DNA of 35,241 nt from an uncultured Bacteroidia bacterium (GTDB lineage Bacteria > Bacteroidota > Bacteroidia > Bacteroidales > Prolixibacteraceae), in contig CAIVMQ010000096.1 in assembly GCA_903907075.1 (NCBI GenBank), forward strand, positions 1-35,241, read 5' to 3'. Both the position numbers and the translations under genes were made by a program. Below the pieces are notes generated by a model that ran no database searches, had not been told where the DNA came from, and saw nothing but the letters and a program-made list of their open reading frames with translations. Shown one piece after another: positions 34,498-35,241 of this stretch. Within the stretch, counting starts at the first letter, position 1. Each line of letters begins with the position of its first letter.

Positions 34498-34581
34498 TTT
34501 TTGATAAAATAAGTCTTTATTATAATTCCAAGTGATAAAAGTGACTAAATATATTTAGTGATCCTTTAGTTGCCAAAAACA

Positions 34582-34614
34582 AAACCCCTGCAAGAAATTA
34601 ACTTACAGGGGTTT
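34582..34614 (-). terminator. Terminator after the GIY-YIG / first tRNA-like unit
   Basis: AAACCCCTG at 34582-34590 pairs with CAGGGGTTT at 34606-34614, a 9-base stem. On the minus strand it is followed by TTTTGTTTTTGG, a usable T tract. It ends the minus-strand transcript that would carry the nuclease gene and the tRNA-like element at 34630-34699, and it may also act on the plus strand behind the DUF4468 gene. Confidence 0.75.
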
Positions 34615-34629
34615 ACTTGTTATTATCTG

Positions 34630-34699
34630 CTCCTCATCCCGAGAGTTCGGGATACGACCTACGGATTAATCCCGAAGTTTCGGGACCGCTCTAACCAAC
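34630..34699 (-). repeat. tRNA-Asn-like element R1 with two arms replaced by hairpins
   Basis: Read on the minus strand this starts in a tRNA-Asn D loop (GTTGGTTA), continues GAGC-GG, and then has the 16-base hairpin TCCCGAAACTTCGGGA where the real tRNA has CGGACTG. Next comes TTAATCCGTAGGTCGTA identical to the tRNA, then TCCCGAACTCTCGGGA in place of the whole T arm, and TGAGGAG matching the 3' acceptor strand. The 5' acceptor strand is missing. It differs from R2 (35050-35119) at 3 of 70 bases. It cannot be a normal tRNA: the anticodon arm and TTC loop are gone. The stop codon of the GIY-YIG gene lies inside it. Confidence 0.85.
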
Positions 34700-34996
34700 A
34701 TTTAAGATATTTTTTATTAGGGTATGAAAGAATTCATAGTTATCCTTTTCTGAAATTAAATAATGAATAAATTTTCTACTTTTTTGGGATTTGATAAATT
34801 TTTCGACTTTCATTGTATCCCCTCTGTCGTGATTTATTGGGAAATAAAGCATTAAATACCAGGGAATGTATTTTGCAGTGAATTTGGAGTTAACAATTGG
34901 GGTATTATGTTCTAATAATCTTCTAGCAACATCTGAGGTTTGCCCGACATAAAACTTGTCAGCTGCTTTCGAATATAAAATATAAACATAAAACAT
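34691..34996 (-). CDS. Small GIY-YIG nuclease, UPF0213-like
   Basis: From the ATG at 34996 the product has 101 residues; a TTG at 35014 is less likely because MFYVYILYS is the usual family start. The GIY-YIG core is present: VYILYS then KFYVGQT, with the catalytic arginine in VARRLLEHN and the metal-binding glutamate in KVEKFIKS. Such single-domain proteins are predicted DNA endonucleases, but the UPF0213 group's role is unsettled. The last codons (NVG, stop) are formed by the D-loop sequence of tRNA-like element R1. R2 and a terminator lie upstream. The gene is thus held between two tRNA-Asn-derived repeats beside a true tRNA-Asn. Confidence 0.88.
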   Translation of the reverse strand: MFYVYILYSKAADKFYVGQTSDVARRLLEHNTPIVNSKFTAKYIPWYLMLYFPINHDRGDTMKVEKFIKSQKSRKFIHYLISEKDNYEFFHTLIKNILNVG

Positions 34997-35015
34997 AGTT
35001 GTAAATATAAACAAA

Positions 35016-35045
35016 AAAGGCCAAAATCTTTCGATTTCAGCCTTT
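35016..35045 (-). terminator. Terminator downstream of tRNA-like element R2 (copy of the tRNA-Asn terminator)
   Basis: On the minus strand a 13-pair stem (AAAGGCTGAAATC with GATTTTGGCCTTT, two G-T pairs) closes on a GAAA loop and is followed by T residues. It is identical to the hairpin at 35134-35163. The 41-base block 35015-35055 that contains it repeats exactly at 35133-35173. Confidence 0.88.
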
Positions 35046-35049
35046 AAAG

Positions 35050-35120
35050 CTCCTCTGCCCGAGAGTTCGGGATACGACCTACGGATTAATCCCGAAGTTT
35101 CGGGACCACTCTAACCAACT
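35050..35120 (-). repeat. tRNA-Asn-like element R2 with two arms replaced by hairpins
   Basis: Same structure as R1: D-loop CAGTTGGTTA, GAGT-GG, hairpin TCCCGAAACTTCGGGA, a 17-base stretch identical to the tRNA, second hairpin CCCGAACTCTCGGG, then AGAGGAG. Its flanking terminator is an exact copy of that of the intact tRNA-Asn, so R2 probably arose by tandem duplication of tRNA plus terminator, after which the two arms were replaced. The 5' acceptor strand is absent. Confidence 0.85.
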
Positions 35121-35133
35121 GCCTAAAAACAGA

Positions 35134-35163
35134 AAAGGCCAAAATCTTTCGATTTCAGCCTTT
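35134..35163 (-). terminator. Terminator of tRNA-Asn
   Basis: A 13-pair stem with GAAA loop on the minus strand, followed by TTTTCTG. It starts five bases after the 3' end of the tRNA, the normal position for a single-tRNA transcript. Confidence 0.9.
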
Positions 35164-35167
35164 AAAG

Positions 35168-35241
35168 CTCCTCAGGTAGGACTTGAACCTACGACCTACG
35201 GATTAACAGTCCGCCGCTCTAACCAACTGAGCTACTAAGGA
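35168..35241 (-). tRNA. tRNA-Asn (GTT)
   Basis: On the minus strand it begins TCCTTAG at the window edge (35241) and ends CTGAGGA plus discriminator G at 35168, 74 bases without encoded CCA. The acceptor stem pairs with one G-T. The D arm is GCTC/GAGC, the anticodon arm GCGGA-CTGTTAA-TCCGT has GTT at 34-36, and the T arm is GTAGG-TTCAAGT-CCTAC. All arms fold, so it is functional, and it is the parent of the two tRNA-like elements to its left. Confidence 0.96.

Follow-up and report, generated by a model that had tools for sequence, protein, structure and literature searches.

From its sequence, the window, a stretch of 35,241 nucleotides from an uncultured Prolixibacteraceae bacterium, carries at its end the right-hand half of a putative small mobile element lodged in a tRNA-Asn gene. 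Such elements are probably free-standing and of the homing type: carrying a GIY-YIG nuclease, they would invade tRNA genes, split them and bring a replacement tRNA. On comparison with relatives, the native tRNA-Asn gene is split into a 5′ half that keeps the native promoter (on a separate contig, C66) and a 3′ half, R2, that keeps the native terminator. Between the native halves lie a full tRNA with its own leader and terminator, assigned as the replacement, and an ORF predicted to encode a GIY-YIG nuclease.

The split tRNA-Asn locus and its uninvaded counterparts

Read on the minus strand, the window carries in order tRNA-Asn(GTT), a terminator-like hairpin, R1, a second terminator-like copy, the GIY-YIG ORF, R2 and a different terminator:

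35167..35241, minus strand: intact tRNA-Asn(GTT), called by ARAGORN and Rfam
35124..35166, minus strand: terminator-like hairpin 3′ of the tRNA-Asn, also in relatives G004 and G014, with a near-copy in G009
35049..35119, minus strand: R1, right-hand tRNA-Asn remnant with anticodon-side and T-arm hairpins
35090..35105, minus strand: R1 anticodon-side hairpin, 16 bases where the anticodon arm would have its 5′ half (7 tRNA bases)
35057..35072, minus strand: R1 T-arm hairpin, with one mismatch
35006..35048, minus strand: second terminator-like copy, 3′ of R1, repeating the sequence after the real tRNA
34691..34996, minus strand: GIY-YIG nuclease ORF, ATG start at 34996 (Pfam, ORF list, structure model)
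34629..34699, minus strand: R2, outermost right-hand remnant, running straight into the native downstream terminator
34670..34685, minus strand: R2 anticodon-side hairpin
34637..34652, minus strand: R2 T-arm hairpin
34575..34621, minus strand: native tRNA-Asn terminator (inverted repeat 34575-34594/34602-34621), matched in the uninvaded G013

With the 5′ end of the tRNA the contig stops; this tRNA is 100% identical in 15 relatives of the genus and is read by us as the element's replacement (rescue) tRNA; the terminator-like hairpin at 35124-35166 is likewise read as brought in by the element. R1 and R2 have a 17-nt block and the D-arm and acceptor blocks in common with this tRNA. A first-pass annotation had described them as nearly identical pieces of tRNA-Asn in which half of the anticodon arm and the T arm are swapped for TCCCGA-N4-TCGGGA hairpins. 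Coordinates and blocks were confirmed, and the two are 96% identical over 71 nt; neither ARAGORN nor Rfam calls a tRNA in R1 or R2. The GIY-YIG ORF between them had been overlooked. Its stop codon is the TAG of the R2 D-arm sequence GGTTAGAGC.

The window palindromes at 34637-34652, 34670-34685 and 35090-35105 are perfect and that at 35057-35072 has one mismatch, making four with at most one mismatch against 0.07 expected in shuffles. A role as intrinsic terminator was rejected, the window hairpins having, in our own reading, no T run behind them.

Within the genus to which the window genome belongs, the gene for tRNA-Asn lies behind an adenosine kinase gene, with the same promoter. At uninvaded Asn loci (e.g. 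L185, L187-L190, L192 and L193) the full tRNA directly follows this promoter. At L182, L183, L186, L194, L195 and L196 the native promoter is followed by a 5′ remnant and a hairpin, and the full tRNA has a different leader. In the window genome, C66 carries 5′-half tRNA-Asn units behind the adenosine kinase gene; C66 and the window contig (C96), which are unjoined, are probably the two sides of one Asn locus. On the right-hand side, the terminator after R2 is identical to that of uninvaded G013 at 49/63 positions, against 47-53% in six other relatives. Since the native promoter and terminator adjoin the remnants and not the full tRNA, it is the remnants that own the native flanks. At L181 and L182 (G006, G016) we also noticed by eye hairpins nested in the T loop and a further GIY-YIG-like frame, apparently located just past the right-hand limit of the tRNA-Asn locus.

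Both sides can be read together at the tRNA-Pro locus of G195 (L292), in the order remnant, hairpin, leader, full tRNA, nuclease, the same hairpin, remnant and yajQ. The left remnant (28 nt) is identical to the start of the intact genes in G198, G199 and G201, and yajQ was read by eye beside the empty tRNA-Pro sites of G201 and G198. At L292 the right remnant lies directly before yajQ, and the insert, bounded by hairpins at 1043 (left) and 1500 (right), measures less than 500 bp and by reading holds only the tRNA and the GIY-YIG ORF. In G172 (L242), three identical 317-bp units, each composed of a 5′ half, a hairpin and a nuclease gene, precede the full tRNA. The 170 nt before the outermost of these remnants match the flank of the intact gene in G192 at 154/173 positions (89%), against 49% for the 170 nt before the full tRNA; the intact G192 tRNA-Pro itself is of a more divergent type. 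As the nuclease gene lies 3′ of the tRNA in G195 and 5′ of it in G172, it can sit on either side. Some elements would supply a whole tRNA and others only one half.

The divergent tRNA-Pro stands before yajQ in both L282 (G192) and L286 (G206), is identical across these two families and differs from that of G172, G198, G199 and G201; it is possible, judging from these sequences, that the tRNA gene was replaced there by transfer. Two other kinds of mobile DNA were rejected: an integrase-borne island (phage or ICE tyrosine recombinase), the L292 insert being too short and limited to the tRNA and the GIY-YIG ORF, and a mobile group I or II intron, since Rfam at gathering score finds only tRNA in the window, L292 and L242.

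Remnants and hairpins across genomes

The 3.59-Mb draft genome of the window carries TCCCGA-N3-6-TCGGGA 27 times, against 0 for the reversed control. By reading, 22 of the 27 are near contig ends in tRNA-derived units, mostly tandem and ~95-130 bases apart, of Asn (C66 and the window), Met (C71, C44), Ala (C6, C131) and Pro (C45) isotype. Replacement affects the anticodon arm and, in some units, also the D or T arm. On another contig of this genome, C81 (L023), a group II intron match (RF02001, 841-1001) adjoins a TCCCGACGCGTCGGGA palindrome at 1059-1074.

The first-pass annotation had allowed for a one-off degenerate duplication, to be recognised by a lack of further copies and of covariation in the stems. 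A search of related genomes for the tRNA-hairpin-tRNA pattern found copies in abundance. The scan of species genomes matched at least 117 stretches; among the matches listed, 94 are from Bacteroidota by NCBI rank and one from Flexibacter, and the remainder from Chloroflexota, Fidelibacterota, Ignavibacteriota, Acidobacteriota, Myxococcota and others, a list of phyla that MAG binning errors may inflate and in which five non-Bacteroidota loci have no copy beside a tRNA. The strict pattern was found in 29/296 genomes (reversed control 0/296), and a search with the nuclease alignment matched 98/148 Bacteroidota genomes at E<=0.001, often in tandem, as counted by protein match with tRNA linkage checked for a part. 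From these counts the element seems common. Its design was seen at 13 tRNA isotypes, mainly in Bacteroidota. The pattern is also carried, together with a GIY-YIG ORF in 4/4 cases, by four IMG/VR contigs classed as viral (L177-L180). The window protein matched nothing in 50,697 phage records or in a plasmid collection at E 1e-5; a phage or plasmid may serve as carrier.

The 117 listed stretches, the four viral contigs and the window made 122 loci, of which 93 hold a total of 160 hairpin copies beside an intact tRNA (among the matches listed). Because the scan pattern demands TCCCGA...TCGGGA directly between D-stem and variable-loop bases, the hairpin sequence and the inner borders (tRNA positions 27 and 44) are largely pre-set and only the outer blocks are free. 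The two end blocks scored, neither of which is in the pattern, are the first 12 tRNA bases (at most 2 mismatches) and the last 14 (at most 3). Among the matches listed, left (upstream) copies keep the 5′ end in 82/92 cases and the 3′ end in 7/92; for right (downstream) copies the figures are 11/68 and 52/68. This asymmetry identifies the copies upstream as 5′ halves and those downstream as 3′ halves, a hairpin standing in for the arm that is lost. In L140, L171 and L088, ARAGORN calls the hairpin copies tRNA-Cys or tRNA-Phe, the gca 'anticodon' of L140 and L171 being the hairpin loop of TCCCGATGCAATCGGGA; public annotations may contain false tRNAs of this kind.

Loci were also collected from the nuclease alone, blind to the hairpin. 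This set of 70 comprises the 30 best places of the protein search (one being the window) and 40 hand-picked regions, a non-random sample that favours tandem and single-contig cases; L235/L241 and L233/L256 were fetched twice. It holds 103 ORFs (98 without double fetches), and a same-strand tRNA is present in the locus for 82/103 (79/98). With ORF positions taken as stop-to-stop limits, the tRNA is upstream within 1.5 kb for 57, only downstream for 25 and absent from the stretch for 21 (57, 22 and 19 without double fetches). Of the 37 rows with left remnants, 15 end at tRNA position 27 and 11 within the D loop (12-16); of the 54 with right remnants, 13 begin at position 44 and 19 at 57-58. A hairpin of at least 6 bp occupies the junction in 28/37 left and 33/54 right rows, compared with 136/3993 random positions; 9/37 and 21/54 rows have none. 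One left and one right row of L272 are genuine neighbouring tRNA-Thr genes, the right one having counted as a hairpin; once these and the double fetches are removed, 25/33 and 32/53 remain. In the rows listed for these loci the hairpins directly abut tRNA sequence; REP palindromes are described with a GTAG or CGTC tag at one palindrome end (PMC3733652). The stems are varied (TCCCGA, CCCCGC, TGGCGC, CTCCGA, TTCCGA, TCCCGC, TCACGC, CCTGCC, TCCTCC and others), and a locus may have matching hairpins on its two sides (L213, L240, L292). Random decay of a tRNA duplicate, which the first-pass annotation had doubted, was rejected, the junctions falling at few positions over many isotypes and families.

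A rival explanation is that tRNA genes were simply duplicated in tandem and that palindromic mini-repeats inserted into those copies that do not function, the nuclease gene being a passenger. Many tandem units do lack a nuclease gene, and TCCCGA palindromes abound, occurring in 35/41 genomes searched with up to 93 each (reversed control 0-3). Already disfavoured, this explanation is improbable in our view: hairpins found blindly sit at the remnant junction and at few tRNA positions, left and right remnants are asymmetric, the native promoter and terminator belong to the remnants, the remnant hairpin of G065 is TTCCGA despite 49 TCCCGA palindromes in that genome, and there is the transfer signal described below.

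The high counts of TCCCGA-N3-6-TCGGGA, which the reversed control matches seldom or never, come from relatives such as G020, G036 and G065. Many of the sites seen there are not in tRNA loci, and some lie inside other hairpins (L034, L035). One, at L049 1501-1518 in relative G009, lies within a full-length RNase P RNA match (1254-1637, RF00010), and such hairpins are thus also present in apparently functional RNA. Remnant T arms at L062 (about 7760) and L094 carry other palindromes, CCTGTCTGCCGACAGGCAGG and CCCCAAAGCTTTGGGG, so more than one palindrome family is in use. Given their presence elsewhere in genomes and in D and T arms, the hairpins need not be owned by the homing step.

Compensatory changes in the stems, for which the first-pass annotation had proposed a test, were found at the orthologous Asn position. 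There, TCCGTC/GACGGA stands in place of TCCCGA/TCGGGA with every pair kept: 3/6 pairs changed on both sides and 42/42 cells are paired. The covariation score was reached by 0/500 shuffles and the number of pairs changed on both sides by 53/500, for 7 sequences that represent effectively one change event. From this single event and the varied stems above, hairpin structure seems to be kept rather than sequence.

Covarying stems at one locus could also fit a functional RNA or decoy, the transcribed remnants mimicking tRNA, for instance against tRNA-cutting enzymes. Folded as single-stranded DNA, R2 is better than 199/200 shuffles and R1 better than 193/200, which also speaks for it. We nevertheless hold this very improbable. 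One acceptor strand and a normal anticodon arm are missing from most remnants; their inner blocks decay, the C block being exact in 13/92 left copies among the matches listed; and a defence-family scan of five proteins gave only a weak partial match, of the window protein to the candidate PDC-S14 (1.7e-4). For an independent structured RNA, one of the guesses in the first-pass annotation, there is no support, as both acceptor strands are rarely found in a remnant. Its guess of a tRNA-targeting insertion unit is supported, and the palindromes may perhaps serve as a nuclease recognition site, its third guess.

The nuclease, apparent movement of the element and a possible mechanism

The window protein (107 aa) matches Pfam PF01541 (GIY-YIG) with E 4.5e-12. 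It is little more than a catalytic domain, Pfam finding the GIY-YIG domain only and no recognised DNA-binding module (NUMOD, HTH) of the kind that I-TevI has. In an alignment of 26 proteins Y18, H32 and E67 are invariant and Y7, G20 and R28 are conserved at >=90%; in the family these are active-site positions. The dN/dS ratio is 0.13-0.36 in the five nuclease pairs with dN <0.25, the only ones used since most of the 268 pairs are saturated. 

Among the matches listed, an HMM built from the window protein finds 66 ORFs in 54/121 hairpin-ascertained loci, and the other 67/121 have no nuclease ORF within the fetched stretch. The end of the ORF is at most 60 nt from the hairpin start in 33/68 right copies and 0/92 left copies, and in 7/92 left copies the ORF lies between copy and tRNA (same matches). 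In the pooled set, the ATG is 1-66 nt past the tRNA 3′ end for 60/73 ORFs with a tRNA at most 250 nt upstream, and the D-arm TAG provides the stop codon for 21/130. L243 (G093) carries a tandem array of up to 8 nuclease genes ~360 bp apart; this array and that of L242, whose three units are identical over 317 bp, are apparently products of recent amplification.

The structure model is confident (pLDDT 92.5). Nearest solved relatives by sequence are UPF0213 (1zg2, 9e-15) and SLX1 (7cq2, 5.3e-8), ahead of I-TevI (1mk0, 2.5e-3), and the Foldseek ranking agrees, with no match at E<=0.001 (best 1.6e-3). This proximity makes cutting of folded DNA a serious rival: an SLX1-like structure-specific nuclease would cut hairpins or branched DNA of single-stranded tRNA genes and palindromes, with insertion and hairpin exchange taking place at hairpins. 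The location of hairpins at tRNA arms and their many different stem sequences agree with such an enzyme. We regard it as rather unlikely, as the clustering of the nuclease tree by isotype (below) fits sequence-specific targets, although homology arms alone could cause this clustering.

Returning to a homing-type element, movement was examined by comparing its segments with their flanks. The 118 bases after the tRNA are identical at 115/118 positions between the window genome and G014, against 74.8% in the kinase flank; the leader is identical at 39/40 positions between the window genome and G004, against 67.8% in the kinase flank and 71/99 in the native promoter. With two element segments 97.5% identical and the adjacent gene at 68-75%, the element seems to move. 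The signal is non-uniform: the G014 leader is identical to that of the window genome at only 33/41 positions (native promoter 79/94), and the G004 right part at only 95/138, the G004 remnant being rearranged. Horizontal movement into cognate sites is thus supported by two segments, the two others not being elevated, and by nucleases that cluster by isotype across host families.

For the 98 nucleases placed on a tree, the tRNA isotype has to change 39 times, against 71 when shuffled. For the 58 rows with host-family codes the numbers are 27 (42 shuffled) for isotype and 31 (39 shuffled) for host family, and for the 18 named rows 8 (11.3 shuffled) and 7 (10 shuffled), about equal clustering; the tree rests on 78 columns and has many unresolved forks. 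Clustering by host family indicates that some inheritance is vertical. Short domains, 26 ORFs without a nearby tRNA, double fetches (L227, L233, L241), tandem duplicates and L088, L140 and L171, whose 'tRNA' is a hairpin copy, had been dropped.

We propose that the GIY-YIG enzyme cuts an uninvaded tRNA gene within or close to the arm due for replacement. Recombination with the element would then repair the break, the two tRNA halves acting as homology arms. The element would thereby be copied in, and the supplied tRNA would keep the cell alive ('homing and rescue'). Cutting and repair are postulated because of the enzyme family and the precedent of SegB (PMC13096335). More speculatively, the hairpins could take the cut site out of the remnants, and tandem arrays might arise by repeated self-invasion or unequal recombination; immunity of the remnants through their hairpins is the role that we prefer, with low confidence. 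A point against homing is that the replacement tRNA, as a presumed target, is expected to be cut itself unless flanks matter; donor alleles of free-standing GIY-YIG enzymes are described as typically cut inefficiently (PMC13096335).

A broader proposal is more tentative and in our judgement has the odds somewhat against it: that these loci represent a large class of natural home-and-rescue selfish elements, in which a nuclease of ~100 residues breaks essential tRNA genes, the element restores a working copy and hairpins immunise the remnants. If true, tRNA-derived arrays would owe their growth to the same process. In many homing elements, an intron or intein ensures removal from the product, which is why they are tolerated. 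The element in tRNA genes, where no intron was found, brings a spare gene and would be a natural counterpart of an engineered home-and-rescue drive. Target sites might be read from the natural pairs in which an intact tRNA accompanies a remnant, which number well over a hundred, and the element offers an explanation of tRNA-like debris and of assemblies that break at tRNA genes.

Comparison with known systems

Among the features of homing endonucleases tested, the GIY-YIG active site, a split target and apparent movement were found, the exception being a DNA-binding module; cutting is presumed. UPF0213 and SLX1 (PDB 1zg2, 1ywl, 7cq2) are the nearest solved relatives by sequence and head the fold list; to our knowledge, their definition includes neither mobility nor association with tRNA genes. 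Searches of the open-licence PMC literature brought up neither GIY-YIG elements that split tRNA genes of bacteria nor hairpin-substituted tRNA remnants.

SegB of phages T4/T6, a free-standing GIY-YIG homing endonuclease, is one of the two closest analogues in that its gene is often beside tRNA genes and it is implicated in cutting tRNA-containing sequence (PMC13096335). In contrast to our element, SegB is phage-borne, and the main text of that paper does not use the word hairpin, nor does the part consulted describe a split native tRNA with 5′ and 3′ remnants (PMC13096335). Engineered home-and-rescue drives share with the element a homing nuclease that disrupts an essential gene and carries a working copy, but they are synthetic, Cas9-based, used in flies and equipped with a re-coded rescue (PMC7968924), whereas the element is natural and its tRNA not visibly re-coded. 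Double-hairpin or repetitive hairpin-forming elements of fungal and sponge mtDNA are short hairpins, apparently spreading, in RNA genes and intergenic DNA; the text consulted describes no tie to a nuclease gene or to fixed split-tRNA positions (PMC2800124).

The other close analogue, alike in way of working with no claim of common descent, is the group of mobile ORFs in fungal mitochondria (Allomyces atp6; Glomus atp6/atp9/cox2/nad3). There an ORF for an endonuclease enters a gene together with a substitute for its 3′ part, and the native 3′ part persists downstream as a remnant (PMC3630166). Remnants of this type are seen in R2, beside the native terminator, and in the right remnant of L292, before yajQ. 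The fungal cases concern protein genes in mitochondria with only the 3′ side duplicated, and the word hairpin is absent from the main text (PMC3630166); the element has a tRNA target in a bacterial chromosome, and a whole tRNA can be supplied. What sets the element apart from SegB and the mobile ORFs is the bacterial chromosomal tRNA target, the two-sided remnants, the supplied tRNA and the hairpin arms, and of the whole element the substitution by hairpins is the strangest part.
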